64,000 nt of DNA from Perkinsus chesapeaki (taxonomy: Eukaryota; Perkinsozoa; Perkinsida; Perkinsidae). Of this stretch, positions 675 to 59,258 are shown piece after piece. The notes beneath the pieces were generated by a model. It was not told the DNA's origin. It did not search any database and saw only the letters and a list, made by a program, of their open reading frames with translations. Positions within the stretch are counted from its first letter, which is position 1; each line of letters starts with the position of its first letter. The DNA lies in assembly GCA_013115145.1 (NCBI GenBank), contig JAAPAO010000093.1:1-64000 (forward strand), written 5' to 3'. A program made the position numbers and the translations under genes.

Positions 675-678
675 CCGA

Positions 679-863
679 TATTCTCATCGCGAAGATTATA
701 AGTATCTTTCGTTATCGCGCGCCCTACTAGGCCGTTTCACATCGGAGTAGTATCAAAGCATGATGACTAATTAAGTAATCTTTTTGCCCTATTCCCATGG
801 TTGAGTTACTCCACGACATACCCGATCCATCTAACGAGACCATCCCCCCGACCAATGAGCACA
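679..863 (+). repeat. 5' LTR, 185 bp
   Basis: Identical to 7252-7436 at a constant offset of 6573. It contains the ATG at 797 and the first ~22 codons of the gag-pol frame, so the LTR is partly coding, as in yeast Ty1. The outer flank CCGA at 675-678 matches the flank beyond the right LTR. Confidence 0.9.
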
Positions 864-3800
864 ATCATCCGAGAAACGACATCGCCGATATTCGTCGATC
901 AAGGCGACTAGCCGGCGAGCTGCCTACGCCAAGAAGCCTGTCAGAAATTCAGAGACAAGCTAGACGCCGCGATTCACATCATGGACTAGAAGACCATCAC
1001 CACGAACAGTTCGCAAGAAGACCACTGCAAGAGCATCAGCGGCTAATAAGAGATCATACGGTCCAATACAATCCGTGTCTTCAAGACACGCTACCCGTGC
1101 TAACCGCTCGGCGACATAGTCTACCCCAGGAATTAGACATCAGCCCTACCGGTCAGCGACAACGTCTACCCCGAGAGTTCGACGTCAGCCCTACCGGTCA
1201 ACAACAGCGGCTACCTCAGGAGTTCGAGATCCCCGACAAGGCCCAAATCCTCAAGAGTCGGCAAATGGCTCACAATTTCGATGAATACAAACCAACTGCG
1301 CAACCACAATCTCGCCGCGCCCAGAACAACGGTCACGCGAGGCAGGCGTTCGAGGTTCGTGATCACCGAAATGAAGACTATATCAAGTACCCAACAACAA
1401 AGGAGCCGCCCGCTGGCGTCAACGACATTATAGCAGAGAACGAGCAACGTGATATTCACCGAAGTGCTACCTACCTGGCCGAAACCTGGCGCAAGAAAAA
1501 GCTACCGGTGTATACTGGCGAGGATGAGACCGACGGTGGTATCAGCTTCTCCAATTTAAGAAGGAAGTGGGAGGCCTTCTGCCAACAAGAATGGGTGTCT
1601 CACGAGAGTCCAGCGGCGGTGAGAGCTTTTCTGTCAGCATGCATCAGTGAAGAGCTGGCCGTCGACATCAAGGACGACCAGTATAACTACGTGGATGTTC
1701 AGCCTAATCGAAGAAGCTACTACAAGCAGTTCTACCACTACACTCTACGGTACCTGGGAACCAACCATCAGGACAAGTCCGTCATTACCGGGCTCATCCA
1801 GCAGATCCTCACCGACAAACAAGGCGGAAGGAAACTGAGCGATTTCTTCAAGGCCACCAATGAAAGGCTAAGGGAATTGGAGTACTGCAGCGTGGACAAG
1901 CACTCTCAGTTGCACCCCCTGCACGTTGGTTTCTCATTACAGGCATGTCTGGGAGCGCCTTTCAGAAGCTGGTGGTACGATGTATGCAAGGAAATGGGTG
2001 GCTCCGACAACATCACCACGTTCGACGATCTCAGGCATATTATGCGGGCCCTAGTAAAAAAGGCCCAGGCTCTTCGACAACAACGCCCCGATGGTTACAA
2101 TGCTGAAGGCCAGTATGTAGGACTTCCAGGAGAAGGACAGGTCTACTATGCCAACAACAACACCAACAAGAACAATCAATATCTAACCCTACAACACGGT
2201 CACGCTCCGGCTCCGACCACGGAGGAAGAAGCTCTACAACAAGCACGTCAGACTACCGGCAAAGGAGAAGACAGTCGAGTACGACAGCAGAACTACATCA
2301 AGGACAGCAGGAAGCCCAACTGCCTCCGATGTTTTGACCGGAACGGCGACCACGACGACAACTCTTGCCCGGAGGAAAAGCCCAAGCGTCAGCACGCGCG
2401 GTGTCGTTGTGGCAGCGCCCGTCACCAGCAACAAAGCTGTCCGTTATCGGACAAGGACCTCAAGTGTTTAAGATGTCACAATGATGAAAGAGCTGGTTTG
2501 CCGCATAGGTCCGGGATGTGCCCGCTGTCACTTGAGCAATTGAAGAAGGCCGATGACGACTACCAGCAGAACGAGTTCATGGAGGCTGGGTCACATCCTG
2601 TTGCTACAAGAATTTGCGTCGGCCCTCGACTGCTCGCCGATGTCATACTGGACTCGGGAGCGGGGAGATGCTATGGCCAAGCACGCTTCCTGAGGTGGCT
2701 GGCAGGCCAGCAAGGAGTTCAGCTAACTTGGGACGACGCAGAAGTCAACAACGCCGTTGGTCCTGTGGGAAACAGTCTGGACGTGAAAGGTTCCTGCAAA
2801 TTGGTGGTGTGGCCCCAGAAAGCGGCTGACGACGACAGCAAGGTCAAGATCAAAATTTATGTAGTCGAGAGGCTCATTCCCCAGCTCATCATTGGTGTCA
2901 GTGGCCTACGACTGCTGCGAGTGGGTTTGATGTTTGGCCCAGATGGCATCAGAGGCTACTCAGGGTTGACCCCGCCAGTTCATCTTGAAAAGGTAGACCG
3001 CCAGATCGTTCACAAATACATGAGCAAGGGCACAGAAGAGACCGTCAATCAGGAGGCCGACAATATCACATGCCTTTTTGATACTGTGAACTTCGTTGGT
3101 CTATGCGACGAGCCCGGCGACGACTACACTCAGGATCTGCTCATACCTGCAGGTGTCGCTGAATCGGAGGAGGCCAAGGTGACCACCGGTGTGTTAGCTA
3201 AAACCAAGCGAGGTCTCTCGCTCATAGAAGCACTGCGACATCCACTTGGAACTTTTCGAGGTATTATACTCGATGAGAAGAACTCCACCAACGAGCATCT
3301 GAGTTATAGAGCACTGCATGACTTCAATTGGACGAGAAGGCCAACTCCGACCCCAACCAACAGGAATGCAACCGAGAGACAGGCTCACAAACTGTTCAAC
3401 ACATTATCGAAGAAGAAGCTTCAGGCAGCTTACAACGACGTCATTAAGCAGTATGAAGAATTTGGTCATATTAAGAGGATCGCCCCCAACCAGATCGACA
3501 ACTACTACTACACACCCCACTTTCCTGTGGAGAAGGCTGACAACAACCGTACTACCCGCATAAGACCAGTCTACGATTGGCGGCGATGTAACCCGCTGCA
3601 ACGACTACCACCACCACAAGATGTTTCGATGTGGCCCAGCATCACGGTGACACGCTGCTACCCCTTTGCAGCTTGGTCCGACCTGAAGAATGCTTATCTT
3701 TTTGACCGCACCCCTCTAGCTACAAGAAGATCACATGGGTTTATGTTATACGAGGTGGAGAAAGGCGTCGCTTCCCTACGGCACTACCACTTCCTTGGGC

Positions 3801-4762
3801 TGCCTATGGGATCTAGCTCTTCAGCAGCAGCACTGCAAACCACCACAGGCATCCTGATGGAGATATCCAATGAAGCGTCGGTGGCCAGGATGTGTAGCGA
3901 TGTTATCACGCCAGCGGCGCCAATATGGGATACCTTGGTTGACCACCAAGCGGACGAGGAAGAACTACAAGGCCTACCAGAAGAAGATCTCTACGGTCCA
4001 AGTCCGGCAGCGTTAGCGCTAGCCGAGATCCTGCAACTACAAGATGAAAGCAAGAAGATGGTAAGTGCGGAAGACAGTCCAGACGGTGCTTGCAATTCAG
4101 TACACCCGAGGTGGTCGATGCTATGGAAAAGTGGCTCCAGAAGAGTGAAGTTTGTGGACGATGTCACCACCGGCGCCCAAACCAAGGCTCAGCTGCTATC
4201 TCTTCGGCAAGACGAGAAGGTATGCGCACAGAAGATTGGGCATATGTTCAACGACGCCAAGGAGAAGCACAGCGATGATGATAAGAGTGCCGAGGGCTTC
4301 GGACTAGTCTGGACAGGAGCAGCTGAGGGAGACCAGCTGAAACCAAGGAAGGTGAAGATTTCTTCAGCAGGGTCCGGCGCGATCCAGAAGCTCACGGTGC
4401 GCAATGTCTTATCGCTACTACATCAAGCCTACGATATCATTGGAGTGCTATCATGGACCCTTATGCCCATCAAGCTGATCCTGCGACAGTGCTACACTAG
4501 CAGGCTGCAATATGACGACTTCATTCCCGACAAGCAGACAAACGAAGTTCTGAAGACTATCGACAACTTCAACAAGGCCATAGATGAAACAACGATACCC
4601 AGATACATCGATGTGTCACGAGTGGTGGTACTTTATGCTGACGCCAGTGCCCATGGATTGGGATACGCCATCAGTAACGGTAACCCACGGGAGATTTATG
4701 TCGCTAGCAGTAAGCTCGTTCCCTTGCAGTCGATGCGGTATTCAATACTATTGAATCAATAG
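797..4762 (+). CDS. Gag-protease-reverse transcriptase polyprotein, N-terminal part
   Basis: A 1321-codon frame. The N-terminus is charged and Gln/His-rich, with about three tandem copies of a ~14-residue unit built on RLPxEFDxSPTGQ (codons ~108-150). Cys/His-rich zinc knuckles lie at ~508-585. An aspartic protease motif DSGAG is at residue 619. Reverse transcriptase follows: motif A SDLKNAY near residue 961, and the catalytic FVDD near residue 1119. The RNase H start (LYADASAHGLGYA) is near residue 1278. The frame stops at TAG 4760-4762 inside RNase H, and the domain resumes in the -1 frame, which is open from 4714. The start codon lies within the LTR. Capsid and nucleocapsid functions are inferred from position and knuckles only. 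Confidence 0.85.
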   Translation: MVELLHDIPDPSNETIPPTNEHNHPRNDIADIRRSRRLAGELPTPRSLSEIQRQARRRDSHHGLEDHHHEQFARRPLQEHQRLIRDHTVQYNPCLQDTLPVLTARRHSLPQELDISPTGQRQRLPREFDVSPTGQQQRLPQEFEIPDKAQILKSRQMAHNFDEYKPTAQPQSRRAQNNGHARQAFEVRDHRNEDYIKYPTTKEPPAGVNDIIAENEQRDIHRSATYLAETWRKKKLPVYTGEDETDGGISFSNLRRKWEAFCQQEWVSHESPAAVRAFLSACISEELAVDIKDDQYNYVDVQPNRRSYYKQFYHYTLRYLGTNHQDKSVITGLIQQILTDKQGGRKLSDFFKATNERLRELEYCSVDKHSQLHPLHVGFSLQACLGAPFRSWWYDVCKEMGGSDNITTFDDLRHIMRALVKKAQALRQQRPDGYNAEGQYVGLPGEGQVYYANNNTNKNNQYLTLQHGHAPAPTTEEEALQQARQTTGKGEDSRVRQQNYIKDSRKPNCLRCFDRNGDHDDNSCPEEKPKRQHARCRCGSARHQQQSCPLSDKDLKCLRCHNDERAGLPHRSGMCPLSLEQLKKADDDYQQNEFMEAGSHPVATRICVGPRLLADVILDSGAGRCYGQARFLRWLAGQQGVQLTWDDAEVNNAVGPVGNSLDVKGSCKLVVWPQKAADDDSKVKIKIYVVERLIPQLIIGVSGLRLLRVGLMFGPDGIRGYSGLTPPVHLEKVDRQIVHKYMSKGTEETVNQEADNITCLFDTVNFVGLCDEPGDDYTQDLLIPAGVAESEEAKVTTGVLAKTKRGLSLIEALRHPLGTFRGIILDEKNSTNEHLSYRALHDFNWTRRPTPTPTNRNATERQAHKLFNTLSKKKLQAAYNDVIKQYEEFGHIKRIAPNQIDNYYYTPHFPVEKADNNRTTRIRPVYDWRRCNPLQRLPPPQDVSMWPSITVTRCYPFAAWSDLKNAYLFDRTPLATRRSHGFMLYEVEKGVASLRHYHFLGLPMGSSSSAAALQTTTGILMEISNEASVARMCSDVITPAAPIWDTLVDHQADEEELQGLPEEDLYGPSPAALALAEILQLQDESKKMVSAEDSPDGACNSVHPRWSMLWKSGSRRVKFVDDVTTGAQTKAQLLSLRQDEKVCAQKIGHMFNDAKEKHSDDDKSAEGFGLVWTGAAEGDQLKPRKVKISSAGSGAIQKLTVRNVLSLLHQAYDIIGVLSWTLMPIKLILRQCYTSRLQYDDFIPDKQTNEVLKTIDNFNKAIDETTIPRYIDVSRVVVLYADASAHGLGYAISNGNPREIYVASSKLVPLQSMRYSILLNQ

Positions 4763-6027
4763 TTCGCAAGGAAACTCTCGCATTAGAGCACGGGTTACCT
4801 GCATTGCTGGAACGTGCTAGGGACTTCCCGTATTCGCCTCATCGTGTTTATTACGTATTAACCGACTCGAGTATTGTTCTTCAGAGAATCGAGAAAGTCC
4901 TGCGCCATAGAAGCGGAGTCACCAAAACTGTCTGGAAAACGCCCAAAGGTTGGAGTTCCTGGGAGGTCAATCACTGCAAATCTATCGTCAACCTCTTGCA
5001 CGAGCTCGAACAACTGGCAGGCGCTGAATCGGTCCATTTCGCACATTGTCCTGGTTTGGCCAACCTAGCTGACGGCTACAGCCGAGGTAGCAACCCCTTC
5101 AATGAGCACTTCTACGAGGTCGAGAACTTCTTGCACGAGCTCAACTCTAATATCAACAAAGGTCCCGCTCTTGGCACTAACCACCTTGTTGGCTTCGCAG
5201 CTGATCTAGAGGAGGAGACACAGCTCATGGACACGCCCAAAGAGAACGAGGTTACGGAAGCAACTGCGAACCTTTACAAGGAGATCGTCGACGCCCAGGC
5301 CGAGGACCCTTATACACAAATATGTGTGTTCCTACTCGCTGAGCAGGACACCGACACCAACAATCTCTCGAGTCATCTCCAAGAGCGATTGCGGGAATGG
5401 TCCCATGCCGAGCGAGCAAAGGTCCGAGCTCTATTTTTCGCCAGAGTAGAAGATGGAAGAAAGGTGTTACATTTGGCGGTAGGCCGTACTATTGTGGAGA
5501 ACGATGAGTCCAAGGCCCCTCTATATATACCAGAAACGGTGCGCGGCAGCGTTATCTCTAAGCTACACAGTTTTTATTGCCATCAGCCCGCTAAGTTTTT
5601 AATCGCCTATGCCGAAAGGCACTACTACTTCAAAGGATTGCGTAAGGCTATCAAGGCCTACTCGCGCAGTTGTCCGGGCTGCCAGCGAAGTAGAGGTCCG
5701 AAGGTATGGCCTGACACTAGACCAAGGGTGATACCAAGAGATTTCGAGGTGAACACTGTGTTAGCGCTGGATTGGGTCGGACCGGCTCGGGACCCAACTG
5801 ATAGTGGCACGGCAGTTCCCTTCGTTGGTGGTCACGGGCAACTGCTGCAACCTCTGACCGATGACCAAGCTCCGAAGTATGCGCTGCACATCTACGACAT
5901 CGTCTCTCGTTACAGCGCTTACTACTTGGCACAAGACATTGTCTTGAAGACAAATCTGCCCAATCTGCAAAGATCTTGGTCGACTTTCACCTCACCAAGC
6001 ACGGCTATCCGCAATACTTCGTTGTAG
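4714..6027 (+). CDS. Pol continuation: RNase H end, integrase zinc finger, start of catalytic core
   Basis: This frame is -1 relative to the upstream frame and has its first ATG at 4804. It holds the rest of RNase H (LTDSS followed by a His-Cys-Pro-Gly / LADGYSRGS stretch typical of retroelement RNase H), then the integrase HHCC finger (His pair in HSFYCH, CPGC) near 5570-5690, then the first catalytic Asp of the integrase core in LALDWVG near 5760. Conserved sequence leaves this frame near 5966-5970, at an AAA run, and continues in the next -1 frame. It could be read by recoding, or the change could be a single-base error in the assembly. Confidence 0.8.
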   Translation, partial: ARSLAVDAVFNTIESIVRKETLALEHGLPALLERARDFPYSPHRVYYVLTDSSIVLQRIEKVLRHRSGVTKTVWKTPKGWSSWEVNHCKSIVNLLHELEQLAGAESVHFAHCPGLANLADGYSRGSNPFNEHFYEVENFLHELNSNINKGPALGTNHLVGFAADLEEETQLMDTPKENEVTEATANLYKEIVDAQAEDPYTQICVFLLAEQDTDTNNLSSHLQERLREWSHAERAKVRALFFARVEDGRKVLHLAVGRTIVENDESKAPLYIPETVRGSVISKLHSFYCHQPAKFLIAYAERHYYFKGLRKAIKAYSRSCPGCQRSRGPKVWPDTRPRVIPRDFEVNTVLALDWVGPARDPTDSGTAVPFVGGHGQLLQPLTDDQAPKYALHIYDIVSRYSAYYLAQDIVLKTNLPNLQRSWSTFTSPSTAIRNTSL

Positions 6028-6926
6028 ATCAAGACAAGAGCTTTACAGGAAAGCTCTTTGTCGGATGGGCGGCTTCCCTAGGTATGGTGGTGGTTACCCA
6101 AGCCCCGTATGCGGCATTTCGACGGAGTTATTTGGAGAGGCAGCACCAAGAGTTTTGGGCCCTTATAAGAGCTATTCGAGAAGAACAACAAGCAAAAGGT
6201 TGCCCTTTATCCCCGTGGTATACCATAGTACCTCAAGTATCAGCGGTGCTAAACGCTACCCCTATTGTGGACGACATCTCACCCAACGATTTGGTGTTCA
6301 ATACTCCGCCGAAGCCGCCACCGTCGATTGCGCCTAGACCCCACCATTCGCCGAACCTCGAGGCTTTCATTTCAAGACACGAAAGTGCCCAAGTATACGA
6401 CGACGATAAGTACAAGCAATATGTGGCGGAGAAGAGAGACAGCTACCAAAACATGCTGAAGACCTTCCACGAGCACACCTTGCAGCGACTACGGCGCACA
6501 GCCATCAAGATGGCTGAAAAAAGCCGCCGCCGCCAGACTCCTACCATCACTCCGTACAGGAAGGGCGACCTACTGTGGTTAGCAACTAACGGTATCAGCA
6601 AACTAAAGCCACGTTGGACTGGCCCGGTACGGGTGGTAGGTGGCGAAGAAGTTACTGGCTCAGCACAGCTACTGAGCATTGCGTCTCTAGGAGGCCGACC
6701 ACGAGGACAAGTCCACATTGCCAACGTCAAACTAGCCATTCTTGATGCTCATCAGATCGAGATCTACACGAAGATGGAAACGTCGGAACCGTCAAATACT
6801 CGGCAGCACTGCTGCCGAGTACCACTGGACACCGGAAATACCCCAGCCTGCTGCCGCAGCAGGCTGGGGTATTTCCGGTGTCCGGAGATATCCCTATGGT
6901 TAAGTCCGACAAGTTCCCCGACATAA
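5976..6926 (+). CDS. Integrase catalytic core and C-terminal domain
   Basis: This frame carries the second catalytic Asp (VVDQDKSF) and the catalytic Glu (YLERQHQEFW) of the retroviral-type integrase core, about 35 residues apart region-wise as in D,D-35-E enzymes. It ends in a small beta-rich segment with KGDLLWL and KPRWTGPVRV, like integrase C-terminal domains. Coding similarity ends around 6750; the last ~55 codons run across two hairpins (6797-6821 and 6827-6883) and look non-conserved. The other frame open at 6746-7138 overlaps this end. The listed start is an alternative TTG; the true upstream junction is with the frame ending at 6027. Confidence 0.8.
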   Translation: MVDFHLTKHGYPQYFVVDQDKSFTGKLFVGWAASLGMVVVTQAPYAAFRRSYLERQHQEFWALIRAIREEQQAKGCPLSPWYTIVPQVSAVLNATPIVDDISPNDLVFNTPPKPPPSIAPRPHHSPNLEAFISRHESAQVYDDDKYKQYVAEKRDSYQNMLKTFHEHTLQRLRRTAIKMAEKSRRRQTPTITPYRKGDLLWLATNGISKLKPRWTGPVRVVGGEEVTGSAQLLSIASLGGRPRGQVHIANVKLAILDAHQIEIYTKMETSEPSNTRQHCCRVPLDTGNTPACCRSRLGYFRCPEISLWLSPTSSPT

Positions 6927-7138
6927 GATACTTCATGATGGAGAGCGACAAGGAGGACAGTCACTTAGTGGTTGCGAGGTCAGTGGTACCCTTGAGCAAG
7001 TCAACAGGTTTATGGTTACAGTGCGATCAGTGCGATATATGGACCGAATCTACTCCCGAGCTATATGACTCCTACAAGGGTGATGCTCCATTCAGTTGCG
7101 GTGTTCTCGGCGTTCCATGTGTGTTTCAGGATGTGTAA
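6746..7138 (+). CDS. CW-type zinc finger module at the 3' end of the element
   Basis: The frame is open from 6746 (first ATG 6878) to TAA at 7136-7138. Around 7005-7125 it encodes GLWLQCDQCDIW followed by FSC and GVPC. The spacing of Trp, Cys-x2-Cys, Trp and two distal Cys matches the CW zinc-finger family, whose known members read methylated histone H3 Lys4 in several eukaryotic chromatin proteins. The usual third Trp is Phe here. The frame is -1 relative to the integrase frame it overlaps, so it could be fused to integrase by frameshifting or expressed separately. A chromatin-targeting role, like that of chromodomains in chromoviruses, is inference. Confidence 0.6.
   Translation, partial: CSSDRDLHEDGNVGTVKYSAALLPSTTGHRKYPSLLPQQAGVFPVSGDIPMVKSDKFPDIRYFMMESDKEDSHLVVARSVVPLSKSTGLWLQCDQCDIWTESTPELYDSYKGDAPFSCGVLGVPCVFQDV
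6797..6821. other. Short hairpin, 11-bp perfect stem
   Basis: Bases 6797-6807 pair perfectly with 6811-6821 around a 3-nt loop. It sits six bases before a second, longer palindrome, inside the overlap of the integrase and CW frames. Confidence 0.8.
6827..6883. other. Perfect 57-nt palindrome, 28-bp stem
   Basis: Bases 6827-6854 are the exact reverse complement of 6856-6883, with the single base 6855 at the centre. Such a structure in RNA could act in frameshifting, packaging or 3'-end formation. As DNA it would tend to be unstable, which suggests selection or recent origin. Confidence 0.9.
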
Positions 7139-7251
7139 CGATTCACTGTATATCTAGTGTATTGTCGATCATTGTTTGATTTACTCCGCGGCCTCACGCG
7201 TATATATTGGAGTGGTAGCAACCAGTAGCTACACCTCCCGTGGCCCGCCAG

Positions 7252-7436
7252 TATTCTCATCGCGAAGATTATAAGTATCTTTCGTTATCGCGCGCCCTAC
7301 TAGGCCGTTTCACATCGGAGTAGTATCAAAGCATGATGACTAATTAAGTAATCTTTTTGCCCTATTCCCATGGTTGAGTTACTCCACGACATACCCGATC
7401 CATCTAACGAGACCATCCCCCCGACCAATGAGCACA
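7252..7436 (+). repeat. 3' LTR, 185 bp
   Basis: Identical base for base to 679-863. It ends in CACA and is followed by CCGA (7437-7440), the right copy of the target duplication. It includes the gag ATG and its first codons, which here run into flanking DNA. Confidence 0.9.
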
Positions 7437-7440
7437 CCGA

Positions 7441-27721: not shown

Positions 27722-27998
27722 TTGTGGTAGGTGGTATGGACATGGCACTGAATACACAGTCTGGGCGCTTTGTGGTGCTGAACAACTGTAGATGCCTAAC
27801 CCGATATCCGGATAATGATCCACATAAATTATCACGAGGGAAGCTCGTAGAGTCGGAGGCCTTAGAAAAACAGGAAAGGGGACAACCCAATCACTGAAAT
27901 GGACACAAACTGATAAATAGGCTTCCACGGCCGAGAATTGAACTCGGGTCTCCTGCGTGACAGGCAGGAATACTAACCTCTATACTACCGCGGATCTC
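27722..27998. repeat. 277-bp duplicated segment, copy 1
   Basis: Nearly identical (a few substitutions) to 29079-29355, offset 1357. It holds a TANGO2-like exon fragment (ALNTQSGRFVVLNNCR on plus) and a tRNA-Asp on minus. No first TANGO2 exon precedes it, so the protein part here is a fragment. Confidence 0.9.
27923..27994 (-). tRNA. tRNA-Asp (GUC), copy 1
   Basis: On the minus strand, acceptor TCCGCGG pairs with CCGTGGA (one G-U), the anticodon loop is CTGTCAC with anticodon GTC, the anticodon stem CCTGC/GCAGG is perfect, and the T arm has GTTCAATTC. 72 nt, no intron. The sequence equals copy 2 within the tRNA body. Confidence 0.93.
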
Positions 27999-28836: not shown

Positions 28837-30377
28837 ATGTGTATTTTACTCGCACTTCGTCCGGCTGGTCCAACTGTGCGCTTCCCCCTCATCATTGCCC
28901 ACAATCGTGATGAACTCCGCTGTAGACGAACTGGCGAGCTTGCTGTGGAGGCTTCGACAGGGTTATGTTGTGCAAGAGACTTCCAAGGAGGTAGCAGAGC
29001 TAGCATTATTTCACGGCGCTTATCGGTGGTGCGCCGCCGCACTCGGGCCCTTGGTCAGACTTACTCTATATTTTAACGTTGTGGTAGGTGGTATGGACAT
29101 GGCACTGAATACACAGTCTGGGCGCTTTGTGGTGCTGAACAACTGTAGATGCCTAACCCGATATCCGGATAATGATCCACATAAATTATCACGAGGGAAG
29201 CTCGTAGAGTCGGAGGCCTTAGAAAAACAGGAAAGGGGACAACCCAATCACTGTAATGGACACAAACTGATAAATAGGTTTCCACGGCCGAGAATTGAAC
29301 TCGGGTCTCCTGCGTGACAGGCAGGAATACTAACCTCTATACTACCGCGGATCTGATATTACATTCATTTCGGGTGGCTCTTCCGTATGAATTTTTTCAC
29401 GTCACGTTCGCCCAGAATCCAGCTGCCGTTTTCCAAGCTTACGTCACAAACATGTTCGTAATGTATGATTCCAGATGATCCCTACTACTTGTTCTCTGTT
29501 GCTACAACATTTACAGCGGTGCCCATATTCCAAGTAAAACGGCATGTACCCAAACATCCTGCCTCGAACATAGATTCTGTGGAGTGGGATGAGTCAACTG
29601 TGGTTCCCGAAGATGAAGGTAATTATTGCTCCTCCACTTAACGCCACACACGCCTGTCAAAGTGCCTTGGATTTGTTCAGTTGTTGTAAAGTCTAACGAG
29701 GTGGGCTGGTCTGAGCATCCTTGGCCTAAGTCAGAGTTCCTGAGGGAGTGTGGTCTGGATCTCATCGCTGGCCTTCGTGGCAAGCCGTCCGTGGATGAAG
29801 CAGCTGCCGCGGTGATGGCAGCAATGTCCCACTCCGAACCCGTCTGCAGCAGAGGTAGCTCGTGAAACTCTAACTTTGCACCAATGATGTTTACTCAGAG
29901 CAATGGAGGGCGACGCCCTCAGATATCGCATCGTGGTCGCCAGATTCAGCACGCGAGTGGTGGATAGTTCAGGCCCCGTTTCTTGCCAGCACCAAGGAAT
30001 TCTCTGCGTATGTCATCATTTCATTCATTGTGCCATGCAGTGTGAACTCCTGCTTGCCCGTGCTGTCACTATTGCCGAATACTGATGTCATAACCGTACA
30101 AAATCCACCTAAAGGCTGTTTCCCACGGTGTCACGAGACGCGACATTACTACGTCACCGCACAGCTCGTGGGCGAGCGCAATCCATTACATTCGCTCCCG
30201 TCCCCTGATCATAGCTACCATGCTACCAGTGTTAGGTACGGTACAGTCTCCCAGACGCTACTCATGGTTGACCGCGAACTGCGTGCGACACATCTGTGGA
30301 TGCGGCCGGTCACCGTGGACGAGGACTCGAGAAGCGTCCTCGGTGATTGGACTAAGTTCCACTTCCCTTGGCCTTAG
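28837..30377 (+). CDS. TANGO2 / NRDE family protein, multi-exon
   Basis: The family begins Met-Cys-Ile and carries an NRDE signature; here exon 1 (28837-28990) starts MCILLAL and contains LIIAHNRDE and ARDFQGG. A GT-AG intron (28991-29087) joins in phase to exon 2 (29088 to about 29203): GGMDMALNTQSGRFVVLNNCR then SRGKL, matching the family's GGTWL...GRFA.LTN and SRG blocks. Later segments include HPWPKSEFLRECG (~29715-29760) and the C-terminal YGTVSQTLLMVD (~30235), equivalent to the family's GTRSQT.LLVD, with stop at 30375-30377. TANGO2 proteins act in Golgi/ER organisation or mitochondrial lipid and haem handling; their biochemistry is debated. Exons between 29.4 and 30.2 kb are not fully resolved. 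A tRNA-Asp on the opposite strand lies just after exon 2, apparently in an intron. Confidence 0.75.
29079..29355. repeat. 277-bp duplicated segment, copy 2
   Basis: Partner of 27722-27998. It contains TANGO2 exon 2 with its acceptor and a tRNA-Asp. The near identity contrasts with the heavy decay of the neighbouring DJ-1 copy, which suggests gene conversion or selection on the tRNA. Confidence 0.9.
29280..29351 (-). tRNA. tRNA-Asp (GUC), copy 2
   Basis: Same cloverleaf as the copy at 27923-27994, with anticodon GTC, perfect anticodon and T stems and a G-U pair in the acceptor. It is antisense to TANGO2 and close downstream of its second exon. Confidence 0.93.
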
Positions 30378-34224: not shown

Positions 34225-37200
34225 CTACCAGAATCCACCACCACTAGTCTCATTAAAGTTGAACTTGACATGCATAATATATTTCATTCTTACCTGAAAT
34301 ACATTTGTCAAGTAACAGTAGCGCCTCTGTATGGAAGCTGACTTGTGCTGTGTTGTATACTATGAATTCGTTATATAAAAGAGAAGCTGCTTCCCCTTGC
34401 AATCTAGCCTCCCTCTCCACCTCCTCACTAGCGTCGATCAAGGGCCCCATGGGAACGCTCACCTCATTGAGGGATGGTAGCTGAACGATGGTGATCTCAG
34501 CGAGTGGCCGGCAAATGCCCTCACCTTAACCTCCTTGGCCGGATCTGGAGCTGTTTTGCCCATACCCCAGGTGCTGTGTGCTTTGGCCTTCCTGGATGAT
34601 TTCTTGGCTTCGTATTCTGCAGCAACCTTCTTATATTGGTCACCTATGGATGCTTTGCAGTAGGTGAGTTAGAGAGGCCACCCTACCCAAAGCCACCTCG
34701 CACAGGACGAGCACACCGTATGGCGAACTAGGTGTGGCGAAGCAATAGTTGGCGGACTTCGAGGAACAGTCTGAAAAACAGCAAGACTAGCCAGAAAAGC
34801 GGCGAGCGATAGGAACCTGCGAAGTAGAGGCCTTTGCCGAACATGTATCCCGTCACTGGGGCCTCTTTGGGAGCGATCTTCAAACCCTTGCTCAAGATCG
34901 ACACCCAATTCGTGAGCCGACTGCCGTGCCAAAGAAGACGGCGGTTGTGCGAACAGACGGGGAACCTGAAGCGGCAAATCCGGCCAGAAGCCATGGCTCT
35001 TCTCACCCCTGAAATTTGTCCCACTCCTCATCGCGTCTGACTTCGAATGCCGAGACGATCTCCAGCTTGTAACCATCATGGGTCGGTGCGTGTGTTGTGA
35101 GCATACAGTCATTTATGACCTTGAAGGTTAGACTGAGAAAAATGATATCAAAGATGACACAGGCGGAGCGACGCACCTTTCTGTCGGCACCACTTCAAGA
35201 TGCACCCCGAGAGCGTTGAACTGTCTGTCGAGCACGTGCCCTTGGCCGCTTGCTGCTCTATCTCGTGCATCCGTGAAGTCAACGATCGACAGAAGGTCCG
35301 TCACATCTTCCACCTGAGACGACTTCCCTATTCATACGATAACTGGCAGCTCTCGTCCGTCGCACCGCTTTCTCGAGTTTCTTGAGCGTGTTCAGCTTGG
35401 CCTTGGCCGCTGCTGCTGTCGTCTTGGAGATCGTATGGGGTATGAGCGTATAGAACCTGCACTTCCCTTTACAGAGCTACTAATCATAGGCTGCACAACA
35501 AATGCACTCCACTTCCCCACGGTATACAGCTGAACAAATGTTAAGCCACGAGGTGAAGAAGAAATACACGACGGTCAGCCGGCTACAGCGTGATAACGTT
35601 GACACCTTTACACTAACTTGTTCATACCACACAGGTCCAGAAATATGCGATATGGGCTACTTCCCCACCTGTTGGTAGCATCCCTGACTCTGAGATCGAA
35701 ACCGTGTGTGGCACGCCTGGTGGCTTCATCAAGCCGCATGAGTGAAGAAAGCTCAGAGAGGACCTGAAAGCACGCCAGGACGACTAGCTCGGTGATTCCT
35801 CCCAGCACGGTAAGGCGCCGTTAGTATGAAACGTATGGGAGCATGTCGGCTTCTCGGACTCACCTCAAGGCCCCGCCTGAGCTGTGCTGCACTGAGTGTT
35901 CCCAGAGGCATCTTAGCCATGTCAATATGCAAGACCTTGGACATATGCTCTTCAATAACCTTCTCGTCGAATATCAGTGATACAAATGATCTCACGGCCG
36001 GCGTCAAGGAGCACACTACACCAGCGTTGTCATCTGAATGTAACGGTACGCGCTGTGGCAGGCAGGAGGGACTTGGCAGACCTTCTTCAGCGACCGCTTG
36101 AGTGGTTCTTCGCTTGCTGGAGTCAGAGCTGGTTCCCATTATCTCCACCATATTGTATCTATGCAGGGAATCTCAATGGAAAATCTAACTTGGCAGATCT
36201 CGCACCTTCCAGGCCGTTGCTCGAAGCTGTCCCTCTCCCGCCAGTCTGTCCCGGTCAGCTCAGTGAACTTGGTGAGGAACATATCAATGGCCTGATCTCA
36301 AACTCCGCTCGTTGGGGCTCTTCGCGCCTCACCTCTTCCCGGGCTGCCTTGCCCGATCCACACCGCACCGTCATCGAGTCGTTAGCCTTGGAGTCACTGC
36401 CACCAACCCGACCCCACTTGCGGAAGACAGCGTAGCGATTACGGGACGACCCGTGGACGAGGACCTGGTCGGTGGTACACCCTTGAGCGGAGCGAAGCTC
36501 CTTACTTGTATTTTGTAGAATTTATTAACATTGGTGGTAGTGTCAGTCTTGGTGCACATGACATGGTACACATTATTAGCGTTGTCCACATAGACCTAAC
36601 ATAGCAAATCAAAGCGGCCGTCGTCGAGACGGCCCCACCTGCGCATCCCTGGCAACGGAGCCGCCGACCTCTTCGTCGACCTCGAGCGCCGGGCTTCCCT
36701 CCTCTGGTGGCAGCCTCCGCTTTGGTCCTGCCCACATCCTAACTGCATCAGTCAGCTTGTCTTACCTCGCTTCACACTCTTTTTCTCGACCGCTTTCACC
36801 TCTCCGCCAACAATTTTCCGTCCTAGTCCGCCGTCGACCTTCCACAGCTTCAAGTGTTTACGCTGCCTCAACTTAGCGCCTCGCATTTTAACCCTGGCAG
36901 CAGCAGCAGCAGCATCCACTGCCTCCCTCGTGGTCGGAGCCTCGACTATCTCGCATTCTTCAATCTCGACCTGCGGGTCCTTCTCGAACTTGACGTCCTT
37001 CCCTCCAAATATCGACCAGCCTGTCGTCGGCGGCATCTCTCCCTCGGCCTTGCAGTAGCCAAGATGGCCCGAGTTGTCATCCAGTTTCTCATGGAGCTTC
37101 CACTTCCCGCCCTTAGCAGCATAAAAGCAATAGATGGACTTCCCCAGGTGCTTGAATGCCGGGCGCCCGTTGTGGTCCTGGTCAAGTCTCTTGTACTCGC

Positions 37201-38616
37201 CGTTGATTCTGCTGTTCTTGGCTTCACTACTGCGGCCCCTTACTCGGATGCCCTTTGCCGGCGCGGCCGCCTCGGCCATCGGTTCACCGTCGTCCGAGCC
37301 TGTCTTGTCACACAAAGCGTCGATGAACTCTGTCATGACGATAGGTAGACCATGCTGCAGCGCGCCGTCGTAGGCCAGGCCGTGGGGATCCGCATACAGC
37401 TCCTCCTCGCCGATAACAACGTGAGTGGTCCTGGCGGCGTCGAAGGCCTCCATCACATGCCCACCACTGTCCTTGATCAATTTCCTCAAGCGCTTGGCCT
37501 CGTCATCGTCGACACCCTCGAAAACGAAGCACATGTGTTTGGCCACCTCATCACCCTCATCCTCGGAGGCAGAGTCCAGGACCTCGGCAGCGGCGGCACT
37601 TGAACGTTGGAAGGAGGGCTCGACGCCGGTGAGCTTGCCGAGAATCTTCTTGCATTCCGCAGGGATCTCGACGCTTGCGAAGGCCTTGTGGCGCTGAAGC
37701 TCCGCGGGAATGCGGAGCCGTCGGTAACGCTTTAGCTTCTCCATGGTCACCACATCTCCGGTGGGCACCGCGAACTTCGGGCAGGCTGAGGTCTTGCGAA
37801 CTCGGGGGAGCATCTCGCGGTAACGGAACTTGAAGTCACAGCGAGTAGAGGCGGAAAAGTACCCCTGGCACCTGACGAGGCCCTCGCTGCCGATCAGGCC
37901 ATCCTGCCCACCTGACATCCTCTCCCTCTTGGACCAAGGATCGGTTGCCGCAGGTGGGACACGGCGGGAGGAGGCCAAAGAGGATCTGGTCGGCAACAAT
38001 GTAGGCTAGCTTAGGAGCCGGCCACTTGTCTTGGAAAAATATACCGTTTTCCGTCAGCACCTACAGTGAACTCGAGCTTCTCTCTACGGGGACAGCCGCC
38101 GCCTCTTCGGCCCACCTGACGCAATATCTTTGCATTCCCCATGGCCTGGAGGTGATCAGCTATCTCGGCCCTATAAGTTATATGTGTTGCGGCACGCAGA
38201 ATCTCAGGATTCTTGGCGTCGGGGGCGTCCAAGTCCAACACCTTGGCGAGGCGAAGGATATCGCTCCACCTAAGATGCCATCACGAACAGCAAGGCTCAG
38301 ATGATCTCACTTCAACCGTTGCCAATGCGCAAGCTCCTCCAGGCTCTCCAAGCCGTAACTGCTAGCGCAGGTGTCGTGGACCCAATGGACGTCGAAACCG
38401 TCGTGGAACGGCGACTGGACCTTCTTCCCGACTTTAACCTGCCAAAGCCGTGGCTCGACCCCACCCACGTTGCACGATGTTGCTCACTTTGCCTTGCACC
38501 AAGAGGGCCTGGCATCGTTTACAGGAGGCTCTGCTGGTGGGGGCGTACTCCACCATGAAGGGCTCTGGCAGCGCTGGTCGGGTTGTAGTGCTGCCCACGG
38601 AGGAACGTCTCGGCAT
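34225..38616 (-). CDS. PARP1-type poly(ADP-ribose) polymerase, multi-exon, with an extra module
   Basis: In the direction of the gene: ATG at 38616; a PARP-type zinc finger ([17 protein letters not shown], then HWVHDTC) at ~38570-38310; a PADR1/zinc-3 region ([20 protein letters not shown]) at ~38240-37850; and a BRCT domain (~37530-37290). Next comes an extra module with [21 protein letters not shown] and GWSIF (~37170-37000). The WGR domain is split over exons ([25 protein letters not shown]) at ~36600-36190. The alpha-helical regulatory domain ([12 protein letters not shown]) is at ~36050-35640, followed by the ADP-ribosyltransferase fold with FYTLIPH. The PARP signature ([19 protein letters not shown] ... 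[11 protein letters not shown]) is at ~34950-34820. The H-Y-E triad is visible in [10 protein letters not shown] and LLYNEFIVY. The protein ends KFNFN plus a short tail at 34225. PARP1 binds DNA breaks in the nucleus and modifies proteins with ADP-ribose from NAD. Only one N-terminal zinc finger is seen. Confidence 0.85.
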
Positions 38617-55162: not shown

Positions 55163-56716
55163 TTACACAGATGATAGCAGCGGTGGGTCCAACTCGCTAT
55201 GCCGCCGTCTTGTAACCCAATGCCCAGCAGCTTGGACCAGTGCAAGAGCTACAAACATTAAGCACGCTACTGCGACAAGATCTCCTAGGTAGACGGCCAG
55301 AGTCGTGCCGGTCCCAAGAGGCACAGTACCAACGATAACCTCCTGCGTGCACTTGCTGCGCTCGAAGCCTACAACCTTGTCGCCGAGAGGATCGATGATT
55401 GCCGAGTCCCACCCAACGTCCGCCTTGACTATAGCGACTCTGTTCTCGACCGCACGGAATACCGAAGTGGCGAAGTGATTCCGAGCGCCCGACCAATCCT
55501 CGGAGGGATTTGTGATGAGAGTGGCGCCTTCTGAGACCAGCTCCCGAGCAGCGCTCGGAAAGTCCATGTCATAGCAAATAAGAGACCCCATGCGGCCGTA
55601 GTCGAACGACGAGTGATCGAGTCCTTTGACGTGCTGATCAACCAAGGCAGGGTTCAACGGGATGGTAGGGTAGCCAAAAACAAGCTTGCTCTTCTCGCCA
55701 CTGATGCGGACAGGATGCTGCTTACCATAGATGCTCTCGACTTCGCCTGTGGGACCAATCGTCATAGCTAGGTTACCCCAACCGACAGTCTCCACCCCAA
55801 CAGTCATAGCAATCTCCAGCTCCTTGGCTAGAGGACTTATATTGCGTTCAACGAACATAGTAGCTGCGGTAACATTCTCGAAGGGACCAAGCCAAGTCTC
55901 TGGCCACACGACGATTTTCGCGCCGTACTCCTCGGCGGCTGTGCGCGTGCTAGCCACTTGGTCATGAAGGCTAGCAGTGCATGATACCATTTCCCCATAG
56001 TGGGGTATCTGACCATTCGTACACAATGGGCTCGGCAAGAAGCCACCTGGCGACACTGCGGCCACGGTCACAGTTGCCTGTCCGGGAAGCATAGACGTAT
56101 AGTAGAGGAGAACACTGAAGAGTGTCCAGCCAAGGACGCCGAGTTGCCAGAGATTCAAAACGTGCCTCGGAGTAAGAGAAGTTAGAGCCTGTGCCAGTGC
56201 TGCATTGCTACACATAACGGCAAACTCAAGACTATAGAAGCCGAAGAGAGCAATTGGCTGTATTAGCACTGGTGATACGTGAAAAGGTGTTGAAAGGGTC
56301 TCCAAGGTACCGAGCATGCGGGCAGTGGCGTACATCATGGCCACCCACATGGCAGCAATCCGAAGCGAGTAGTAGGCAGAATCGTTCTTGAAGGCAATGT
56401 TCTCGAATAGGCCGGCCAACCACCACAGTATGCCCCACGCCAAGCCAATGAGCATCCCTAGCCCAATGTCGAGGCCCATGTTCCAAAGCGTGATACCAAG
56501 GGCGAAGAAGAACGTCACAACCGGCGGCCAGATGGAGTTGCTGAGTCTCTGTGCCGCTAAGAGGGGGGATATGCAGAAGAGAGAGACAGGCCAGAGCTCT
56601 AGGAGATACGGCAGACCGATATGCACAGTCCTGATATTGAAGAGCACCACTGTGCTCAGACATAGAAGGAATAAGGTCGGAGCATTCGAATTGGAGGCCG
56701 TCAGCGCGAGGACCAT
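55163..56716 (-). CDS. Apolipoprotein N-acyltransferase-like membrane protein 1
   Basis: A single 517-residue frame, the size of bacterial Lnt (E. coli 512). About 200 residues with 6-7 hydrophobic segments are followed by a carbon-nitrogen hydrolase domain. The catalytic triad is present: Glu273 in VVWPETW, Lys332 in YGKQHP, Cys381 in ICYDMDFP; a further membrane segment follows near residue 480. Bacterial Lnt N-acylates lipoproteins through a thioester on that Cys. Eukaryotes lack the bacterial lipoprotein pathway, so the substrate here is unknown and may be a GPI- or secreted-protein terminus or a lipid. No intron is needed. A paralogue lies ~900 bp upstream on the same strand. Confidence 0.85.
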   Translation of the reverse strand: MVLALTASNSNAPTLFLLCLSTVVLFNIRTVHIGLPYLLELWPVSLFCISPLLAAQRLSNSIWPPVVTFFFALGITLWNMGLDIGLGMLIGLAWGILWWLAGLFENIAFKNDSAYYSLRIAAMWVAMMYATARMLGTLETLSTPFHVSPVLIQPIALFGFYSLEFAVMCSNAALAQALTSLTPRHVLNLWQLGVLGWTLFSVLLYYTSMLPGQATVTVAAVSPGGFLPSPLCTNGQIPHYGEMVSCTASLHDQVASTRTAAEEYGAKIVVWPETWLGPFENVTAATMFVERNISPLAKELEIAMTVGVETVGWGNLAMTIGPTGEVESIYGKQHPVRISGEKSKLVFGYPTIPLNPALVDQHVKGLDHSSFDYGRMGSLICYDMDFPSAARELVSEGATLITNPSEDWSGARNHFATSVFRAVENRVAIVKADVGWDSAIIDPLGDKVVGFERSKCTQEVIVGTVPLGTGTTLAVYLGDLVAVACLMFVALALVQAAGHWVTRRRHSELDPPLLSSV

Positions 56717-57608
56717 CGCAGGAAATTAGAACTACGAGGAGATCGCATTACCCTGACTGGAAAAGACATGAGTGGCTGGTGGTGGTGGCGCACAGTAAGA
56801 GGGCGCAGTTTTCTGCAGTAGCTTATCTCGAAGCACGAAAAAGGACTTTATATGCTATGCGGTGATATTACGACTAGCTGTGTGGGGCAGGACACTTCCG
56901 CGTCCTTCAGCTGATTATTCCCAACGTCTCGGAAAGGCTATCACCGGAGATACCCCCCAATTCTCAACACCAAGTTTCCGTCGAATCTCACTCAAAGAGG
57001 GACGGAGAAGTGAATGATAAGCAACACTCCACCTTGGGGTTCCCTGAAGACACAGTAAACCAAGGTGGACGCTGGAACACTGGATGAACTGGCCGAAAAC
57101 AGTTCAACGAGACCTTTCGTATTTGCCTCTCCCAACGCTAGAATACCGATGACCTCTCCGAGTCATCGGCAACGGCCAGAAGCTAGACGACTCCGAGATT
57201 CGGCGCACGACAGCTAGCGTGGAACACTCAACGATTGGTAAGGAGAATGTATCGATCATGCCCCTTCCCTATTAGAGCTCGTCTTCCCCACTTGGGCGCC
57301 GGTGGAACTTCCATCATGGAAGCAAGAAACTTGTGCTAGAGCTGTCCCCTGGTAGCTCCAATGGATACGATACGCGAGCCGTACAGCGGTTCACCTTCTG
57401 CTTGCTATTCGCAATCACGAACGCAAGACGACGACGGGATCAACAAAGGATTTTCTCTTACTGGGTTTGCTTGAGGGAAATCATCTCTGGAAGGAGGTAG
57501 AATAGGAGAAGGGGCGATCCAGAATGTACAGCATCACCCCAACACTTACAACAAAAGGCTAGGATGCAATAGTGAGATAATGTCGTAGCTTCCAACGGAG
57601 GTCTTCCT
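56717..57608. other. Spacer between the two Lnt-like genes
   Basis: An 892-bp region with no supported gene on either strand. It holds the promoter of the first Lnt-like gene and the 3' end of the second. Confidence 0.45.
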
Positions 57609-59258
57609 TTAGGAAAGCTTCACGTAGATTCCCAGCCCGTTTAGGCGCTTCCAGAAAACAGTATTCAGGAATAGTAAAAAAATCAACGGCACAACGCGCC
57701 CGTAGAGCGATGCCATTGTCGGTTCGCTCGAGCCCAGATGTACAGTGCCAGCAACAGCGTGACGCTGTGACACAGGACTCATATAGGAGGCTGTGATATC
57801 TCCTCGGGCATCAACAATAGCTGAATCCCAGCCAGTGTCGGCTTTCACAATTGGTACACGATTCTCTATTGCCCGGAAAACATAGGCTGCTATATGGTTC
57901 CGCATCGCCGACCAATCAGATGAAGGACTCAGAATCAGCTCAACTCCTCTTCGCTTCAATGAGGCCGCAGACTCGGGGAAATCCATATCGTAACAAATGA
58001 GGGGGGCCACTTTAACAGTTAAATTGCTGAGGCCGAGCCAACCACCTTCAACTTCAAGGTCGGTGTAACCGTAGGTAACAGTGCTCTTCTCTCCCAGGAG
58101 CTTCACTGGATGCATCTTCCCATAGTAACCGAGAACCTCACCTTCGGGACTTATCGTTACGGCAAGGTTAGCGCGGTCGAGGGTATGCATGCCCACAGTG
58201 AACAAAATGTGAAGCTCTCTGGCCAGCGGAGCGAAGGTCTCCGCCACGGCTTGTTCGAGCTCATCCAGGCTTTCGTATGCTCCAACCCAAGCCTCGCTCC
58301 ACACCACTATCTTGGCACCGCTCTCACTAAAAGCTCTGCGAGTGGCCTCCATCTGCTCGTCAAGCGATGCAGTGCAGGGTAGGGCTTCACCAAAATGGGG
58401 CCTTGTACCGTTACGGCAGAACAGCACTGCGGTCGGCAGGAGACCACCAGGCGATATCGCTGCCACTGGCGCGGTGGGACTGGTGGAGGAGCCCAAGGTC
58501 GAGTACTGAAGCACACTGGTTCCAACCCAAAGCGTTGTCCCCAAGATGAGCCCCTTGAAGATGCGGCGCCTACGCTGTTTAGAGGGTGTGAATAGCAGCT
58601 GAGCCACACATGCGTTGAAGGAGCCAAGGGCGAATTCGAGGCCGTAGAACCCGACCAAGGAGAGCGGCTGGATTAGAAATGGCACAACGTAGAGAGGCGA
58701 GGAAAGCGCCGGCATGGTACCAGCGATCTCAACAATCAGGTATTGAATACATGCCCACACCGAGCCCACAATGACAGGGAAAGCCGTACTGTCTCTCAGC
58801 GGGAGAAGTCGGAAAAATAGCGACCATAGCAGACCGACCACCGCGCCCAAGCACATTCCAACCGTAATGGGAACGGCGATGGTCCAAGCATAGCCAGCAG
58901 ATGCCAAGGCAAAGGTAAGAATTATGAGCCATAGCGGAGCACCGTTGCGCTGAGCCGTCAACACCGGAACTAGAACAATCAAACAAAGCGGCCAAAGTTC
59001 CAGGACCGGCCCACTGTCGAGCTTGATGGAGCGAAGTGGCCAGATTAGGGCTGTTATGAGGCTCACAGCAGCTGACCTTCTAGTGGACCACATTTGGAAC
59101 CACAAGCTGTAGAGGAAGCCTTGGCTCGTAGGACGGACGTATCCTTCGCTGTGCACCACGCCACTAGTGAACGCAAATGCCGTACTGATTAGTGCGGGAA
59201 ACTCGAGTGTATAAATGACACAGAAGGAGAGATACACCACCAGCAGCAGCAGGGGCAC
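57609..59258 (-). CDS. Apolipoprotein N-acyltransferase-like membrane protein 2
   Basis: A 549-residue single frame, paralogous over its whole length to the gene at 55163-56716. It shares GGLLP/GGFLP, GAKIVVW, the YGK-HPV stretch, ICYDMDFP, NHIA/NHFA and RAIENRVPIVKADTGWDSAI. The triad is Glu322 (VVWSEAW), Lys381 (YYGKMHP) and Cys422. Six to seven N-terminal hydrophobic segments and one C-terminal segment give the Lnt layout. It has ~30 extra N-terminal residues that may extend the first membrane helix. Divergence between the two is substantial, so the duplication is not recent. Both keep the active site, which suggests two working enzymes. Confidence 0.85.
   Translation of the reverse strand: MPLLLLVVYLSFCVIYTLEFPALISTAFAFTSGVVHSEGYVRPTSQGFLYSLWFQMWSTRRSAAVSLITALIWPLRSIKLDSGPVLELWPLCLIVLVPVLTAQRNGAPLWLIILTFALASAGYAWTIAVPITVGMCLGAVVGLLWSLFFRLLPLRDSTAFPVIVGSVWACIQYLIVEIAGTMPALSSPLYVVPFLIQPLSLVGFYGLEFALGSFNACVAQLLFTPSKQRRRRIFKGLILGTTLWVGTSVLQYSTLGSSTSPTAPVAAISPGGLLPTAVLFCRNGTRPHFGEALPCTASLDEQMEATRRAFSESGAKIVVWSEAWVGAYESLDELEQAVAETFAPLARELHILFTVGMHTLDRANLAVTISPEGEVLGYYGKMHPVKLLGEKSTVTYGYTDLEVEGGWLGLSNLTVKVAPLICYDMDFPESAASLKRRGVELILSPSSDWSAMRNHIAAYVFRAIENRVPIVKADTGWDSAIVDARGDITASYMSPVSQRHAVAGTVHLGSSEPTMASLYGRVVPLIFLLFLNTVFWKRLNGLGIYVKLS

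Follow-up and report, generated by a model that had tools for sequence, protein, structure and literature searches.

A diverged CW-type zinc finger behind the integrase of a BEL/Pao-like LTR retrotransposon lineage in Perkinsus, a candidate reader of histone H3K4 methylation

Background

A chromodomain at the C-terminus of the integrase has been described in Ty3/Gypsy chromoviruses, in Chronos elements of oomycetes and in other lineages in Ectocarpus, and the Tudor-domain element Gypsy-10_Ec32 of Ectocarpus is, according to its authors, the first transposable element reported to carry such a domain (PMC12477816, in the part of its text available). Integrase-borne reader domains explain the landing-site choice of some long terminal repeat (LTR) elements. 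The chromodomain of chromoviruses reportedly directs integration to heterochromatin, a result ascribed to Gao and colleagues in 2008. Here we analyse a 64,000-nt stretch of DNA from Perkinsus chesapeaki (contig JAAPAO010000093.1, positions 1 to 64,000; referred to below as the window), in which an LTR retrotransposon at 679-7436 carries a diverged CW-type zinc finger 3' of its integrase, a module that may read methylation of lysine 4 on histone H3 (H3K4).

CW domains contain four cysteines and three tryptophans. Two of the tryptophans, nine residues apart (positions 410/419 and 865/874 in known domains), form the pocket for methyl-lysine and the third lies in the core; the preferred methylation state varies among CW subtypes (PMC9043364, as far as the available text of that source goes).

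A CW-type finger follows the integrase

The C-terminal module is encoded by an open frame at 6746..7138 (+ strand, frame 2, 130 aa), which ends GLWLQCDQCDIW...FSCGVLGVPC. An earlier note on this stretch had taken this string and two distal cysteines for a CW finger attached to the integrase region of an LTR retrotransposon. The frame, the string and both cysteines are as it described, and so is the attachment, since the finger is located 3' of the H2C2, rve and MLVIN_C matches and within LTRs identical at 185 of 185 bases. The finger occupies 7013..7120 (+) with residues W0, C+3, C+6, W+9, F+26, C+28 and C+35, giving the pattern W-x2-C-x2-C-x2-W-x16-F-x-C-x6-C at the end of the frame. It is preceded by an N-terminal extension of the module, KSxxFPxxRYF (6902..6934, +), which in alignment is common to the window element and its Perkinsus olseni counterpart. 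The window contains a single instance of the motif W..C..C..W.{10,30}[WFYL].C.{3,12}C, and none of 200 first-order Markov simulations of the window contains one. The placement after the integrase, also claimed in the earlier note, stands as regards position, but in the window copy the finger lies in a different reading frame, a point that the note did not make.

Relatives display the fusion in one frame. In the P. olseni element P0001, which was found by its reverse transcriptase, all parts belong to one predicted protein of 1989 aa with the finger after the integrase. The modules of the window element and P0001 are 48% identical over 82 columns (E 1e-21), KSxxFPxxRYF extension included, and no other part of this pair is as well conserved as the module, which has 47.6% identity versus 26.9% for frame 779-4762 (1288 columns), 29.6% for frame 4714-6027 and 28.2% for frame 5865-6926 (E 3.4e-31). 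A second P. chesapeaki element (G000:C643), found by its integrase, consists of one uninterrupted frame of 1655 aa that runs from a gag with CCCH fingers through the integrase, ends SWIQCSKCLAWHE...FVC...RC and is flanked by identical 286-nt repeats. Its public relative P0003, retrieved with the integrase-and-finger region of C643 as query (finger included), is 40.6% identical overall and has the same terminal finger at 45.8% identity. A further element at the start of contig G000:C371 retains the 3' part of the integrase and ends HWVECTRCGKWR...GC...SC.

When four of the tails are aligned the only invariant columns are W, C, C, W, C and C, and the fifth tail keeps all six. The four cysteines, putative zinc ligands, are spaced at C+3, C+6, C+27-29 and C+34-36 across the five tails (+28 and +35 in the window), and two tryptophans nine residues apart, W0 and W+9, are present in all five. 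C643, P0003 and C371 have a short linker between integrase and finger; in the window element and P0001 it is longer and includes an additional conserved stretch. The expectation that related copies would keep the finger frame is borne out by P0001, C643, P0003 and C371, though not by C159, a locus that is taken up again below.

Among the other matches, C39:54700 (E 0.136) aligns without the cysteines and was taken as a chance match, and the match of the C643 tail to C201 (E 0.0016; a 31-aa frame with a stop) has no motif in its sequence. With the C643 integrase region as query, a public polyprotein, P0004 (25% identity over 52%), was also retrieved; it has a precomputed chromodomain assignment (PF00385) and is thus a reader-bearing element of classical type.

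Distribution and phylogeny

The genome searched comprises 35.4 Mb in 884 contigs, and gave 59 H2C2 and 44 rve profile matches. For the motif scan 60 integrase loci were cut, representing 45 places by coordinates, with about 19 matched places outside this count; in four of the 60 (two places) the cut sequence ends while the frame is still open. In a frame-tolerant scan the strict motif was found at one of the 60 loci, the window itself, and it was absent from five further stretches (C223, C755, C171, C693 and C371:13.7-15.2 kb). At C718 (loci L072 and L075) one stretch fits a relaxed version of the motif but not the strict one, and it does not resemble CW. Together with C643 and C371, the window element brings the finger-bearing elements among the places examined to three, and the finger thus marks a minority lineage.

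Searching the genome with zf-CW returned five matches (C113, C192, C599, C371 and C687), of which C371 is the element above, C687 is a 16-residue match and the remaining three appear by eye to be host proteins or exons. By eye, the host proteins at C192 and C113 (loci L003 and L016) have two CW-like fingers each. These proteins are possible donors of the element finger.

In an integrase tree built without the finger (43 rows), the window element, P0001, C643, P0003 and C371 are grouped on one side of a branch (support 92/78), a clade that 94% of 200 bootstrap trees share. The finger label requires one change on this tree, versus a mean of 4.8 when labels are shuffled, and none of 500 shuffles was as low. 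Of the 60 loci, 23 did not enter the tree (16 were duplicates or the window itself, seven were short or broken), and two further rows were removed because of gaps; many branches are long, including that of P0002, the outside Pao-type row. The topology favours a single origin of the finger. The integrases of the window element and P0001 share only 31% identity over 164 columns; the finger is thus probably a long-retained feature. No match was obtained in a protein search with the 130-aa frame, in phage records, in prokaryote genome contigs with P0003 as query or in viral contigs with P0001 as query.

Structure and class of the element

The element is bounded by a 5' LTR of 185 bp at 679..863 (+) and a 3' LTR of the same length at 7252..7436 (+), identical at all 185 bases, with a target-site duplication CCGA directly outside each (675..678 and 7437..7440). 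These paired LTRs and duplications around a gag-pol region identify it as an LTR retrotransposon, and the LTR identity together with CCGA on both sides points to a probably recent insertion. Four overlapping open frames (779-4762, 4714-6027, 5865-6926 and 6746-7138) make up the coding region.

The first frame (779..4762, +, frame 2, 1327 aa) contains gag, protease, reverse transcriptase and the start of RNase H. It matches Peptidase_A17 (E 8.3e-9; 36 bits, Pfam cut-off 22.3), and gag, protease and zinc-knuckle-like cysteine clusters were assigned by eye and from the relative. The remainder of RNase H, the integrase H2C2 domain and the start of the integrase core are encoded at 4714..6027 (+, frame 1, 437 aa), where the zinc-binding Integrase_H2C2 domain (PF17921) is matched at 5527-5694 (E 3.6e-9; 37 bits, cut-off 25.5). 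Integrase core and C-terminal domain follow at 5865..6926 (+, frame 0, 353 aa), a frame with only weak Pfam matches to rve (E 0.027) and MLVIN_C, the C-terminal domain of murine leukaemia virus (MLV) integrase (E 0.034). With both Peptidase_A17 and Integrase_H2C2 above cut-off, the profile matches suggest that the element is BEL/Pao-like. The chromodomain that would mark a chromovirus (PF00385) was not matched by Pfam in the integrase-end frames 5865-6923 and 6746-7135.

The first in-frame ATG lies inside the LTR both in the window element (at 797) and in the C643 element (at 899 of locus L014), so that in each of them the beginning of the coding sequence is present a second time in the 3' LTR. 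Inside gag, at 1103-1237, there are three tandem 45-nt units whose identity to the reference copy is 100, 80 and 64%.

Frame interruptions and a palindrome in the window copy

Three frame changes occur across the coding region of the window element, and the last of them separates the integrase (frame 0) from the finger (frame 2). As these frames differ, the window copy probably does not make the integrase-finger fusion as one chain. It is the predicted proteins of the relatives, not the window copy, that exhibit the fused design; with all parts of P0001 in a single 1989-aa predicted protein, the window copy is interrupted. Programmed frameshifting is not favoured as the cause of the three changes, because the C643 frame is uninterrupted. 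Sequencing error, replication error and decay are all candidate causes.

An inverted repeat with 35-nt arms (6820..6890) is located where the integrase and finger frames overlap, at the site of the change in frame. Its arms are 91% complementary (98% over 6827-6883); between integrase and finger (6800-6890) they make a near-perfect palindrome of 57 bp around a single central nucleotide, and a smaller hairpin lies before it. The predicted RNA fold of 6790-6895 has an energy of -81.2 kcal/mol (z -14.9), and the palindrome was the sole inverted repeat reported in a scan of the window (seed 14, arms of at least 20, at most 120 apart). It looks like a fold-back event. A functional role was considered and set aside, nothing having been observed in its favour and the surrounding 759 bases having no second place in the genome by DNA search.

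Other features of the window

Two neighbouring frames on the minus strand (55163-56725 and 57609-59258) each encode a hydrophobic half followed by a CN_hydrolase domain (Pfam E 3.9e-18 and 3.9e-17), an arrangement that we take to resemble bacterial apolipoprotein N-acyltransferase. Such an enzyme would be unusual in a eukaryote. Also on the minus strand are a BRCT-domain protein (36752-38005), the second half of which resembles the PARP WGR region by eye, and two tRNA-Asp genes of equal Rfam score, 1.3 kb apart (27923-27994 and 29280-29351). The dinoflagellate spliced leader was not found in the window.

Proposed role of the finger

The polyprotein of this lineage ends in an integrase with a C-terminal CW-type finger. 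We propose that the four cysteines of the finger would hold one zinc ion and that its two exposed tryptophans would form a pocket to grip lysine 4 in methylated form on the H3 tip. On its linker to the integrase, the finger would dock the integration complex on H3K4-methylated nucleosomes, and new copies would preferentially insert into active chromatin or close to it. That the finger binds zinc, binds H3K4me and steers insertion is inferred here. Direction of insertion to active promoters had been suggested in the earlier note and is a reasonable role. That a BEL/Pao-like lineage docks a CW-tailed integrase in this manner and steers its insertion to active chromatin is a proposition we regard as evenly poised. 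Docking on methylated H3K4 is the best supported of the readings considered because the pocket tryptophans are present in all five tails and the finger has the same C-terminal place as the chromodomains of Gypsy elements. The fuller account, that an ancient BEL/Pao-like lineage captured the finger once and has docked its integrase on H3K4-methylated nucleosomes ever since, is held tentatively, with a slight lean to doubt.

A number of observations weigh against this proposal. Where CW domains have their third, core tryptophan, four tails have phenylalanine and C371 has leucine, and for this reason we label the element finger "CW-type, diverged" rather than a strict member of PF07496; a host CW protein, C113, which at 39.4 bits is above the Pfam cut-off, also has phenylalanine at that place. 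The profile comparison suggested in the earlier note gave a sub-threshold match for the window copy: against a curated zf-CW (PF07496) cut-off of 27.5 bits it scored 13.5 bits as a whole frame, 14.5 for 6878-7135 and 16.2 for 6986-7135, and taken singly it receives no CW call from Pfam. The comparison went better for the C371 tail alone (27.6 bits, just at the cut-off and the only tail to reach it) and for the C643 tail alone (23.4 bits, E 5.8e-5), but these scores drop to 22.9 in the whole 299-aa frame of C371 and to 15.3 in that of C643. Pfam finds no zf-CW match in the P0001 tail alone, zf-CW is absent from the precomputed Pfam list of P0003, and an NCBIfam search gave no match. In the PDB, a profile of four tails picked up CW domains of MORC3 (E 0.0042), a result in favour of the note's assignment, but only over the first 14 residues (the W-C-C-W segment) and behind a designed peptide as top match. 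An AlphaFold model from three sequences is of modest confidence, with a mean predicted local distance difference test score (pLDDT) of 65.7 and blocks of 69-86 over residues 31-70; its structure matches place CW chains first but weakly, no fold match being significant, and the VIA-align list of 120 chains cannot separate CW from PHD because PHD chains have nearly the same Z as MORC3 CW. As regards conservation, C371 was found by its finger in the zf-CW genome search and is therefore not independent evidence, C159 matches the window integrase better (E 3.1e-7) than C643 does (E 2.5e-4) and yet ends without a finger, falling outside the finger clade on the integrase tree, and a simpler model recovers the same clade with a support of only 59.

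Several of these points bear on rival explanations. The module could be another kind of zinc ribbon or a PHD-like finger, resembling CW at WxxCxxCxxW only and having no reader function, as might be suspected from the window tail fitting an unrelated C2H2 model about as well as zf-CW, from the restriction of the MORC3 match to the W-C-C-W segment and from the single-sequence PDB search, which places ASH1L chains first (one entry is named bromodomain and PHD). Against this, zf-CW is the only Pfam family that matches the C643 and C371 tails, with matches of 42 and 39 residues respectively, and the spacing W0-C3-C6-W9-F26-C28-C35 is that of CW, which makes this explanation very improbable. It has a negligible counterpart in the idea that 6746-7138 is open by chance and merely follows a decayed element. 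The three frame changes and the palindrome at the last junction might be cited for it; the same module in one P. olseni protein, together with the alignment to its tail and the simulated windows reported above, rules this out in practice.

If the CW fold is real, its ligand may be a different one. Zinc fingers of retroelements commonly bind nucleic acid, and the finger might bind DNA, RNA or another integrase subunit and stabilise the integration complex or the cDNA. We consider this unlikely, though the most serious of the rivals, since both pocket tryptophans accompany the cysteines in every one of the five tails, as histone reading predicts. Less probable again is a finger that reads the H3 tip mainly with unmethylated or singly methylated K4, or another lysine, and leads integration to inactive, enhancer-like or other chromatin. 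The variation in methylation-state preference among CW subtypes (PMC9043364, available text) would allow for it, and several of the structural matches are readers of unmodified H3; on the other side, no sequence feature that we examined separates these preferences.

If, as we propose, the finger reads H3K4 methylation, the target would be active chromatin, opposite to that of chromoviruses, and the element would provide a direct integrase-borne reader of an active-promoter mark, a mirror image of the chromovirus chromodomain. This makes a testable prediction in Perkinsus, a relative of the dinoflagellates, where finger-bearing and finger-less elements of one genome can serve as mutual controls.

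Comparison with known systems

Integrases with a reader at their tail are already known; in the literature covered, Gypsy elements bear such readers, either a chromodomain or, in one case, a Tudor domain (PMC12477816, within its available text). The earlier note knew of no CW finger in such an element, and in agreement with this none is described on an integrase among the literature matches listed (titles and abstracts, with few subscription papers covered). It is the combination of the CW reader class with a BEL/Pao-like superfamily that we did not find described, and it would add both a different reader fold and a different superfamily.

The window element resembles BEL/Pao elements in its Peptidase_A17 and Integrase_H2C2 matches, the order of reverse transcriptase, RNase H and integrase, its short LTRs and the 4-bp target-site repeat. 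It differs from them in its C-terminal finger and in a coding frame that starts inside the LTR, and its similarity to the public Pao-type polyprotein P0002 is low (31% over 22% of the query). The finger has its four cysteines and two pocket tryptophans spaced as in the CW domains of MORC3, ZCWPW1/2 and ASHH2/SDG8; those domains belong to host chromatin proteins, whereas here the module is on an integrase and has phenylalanine or leucine in place of the core tryptophan. Gypsy-10_Ec32 is comparable in having a histone-reader class at the polyprotein C-terminus in a protist lineage, kept over a long divergence (PMC12477816, same limit), but it is a stramenopile Gypsy element with a Tudor domain, unlike the CW-bearing, BEL/Pao-like element of Perkinsus. 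As in the chromoviruses, the integrase of an LTR retrotransposon has a small reader-type domain fused to its C-terminal end. In contrast to them, the element matches the Pao peptidase profile and not Gypsy, and its CW-type finger would be expected to recognise H3K4 methylation in active chromatin, where the chromodomain is associated with heterochromatin.
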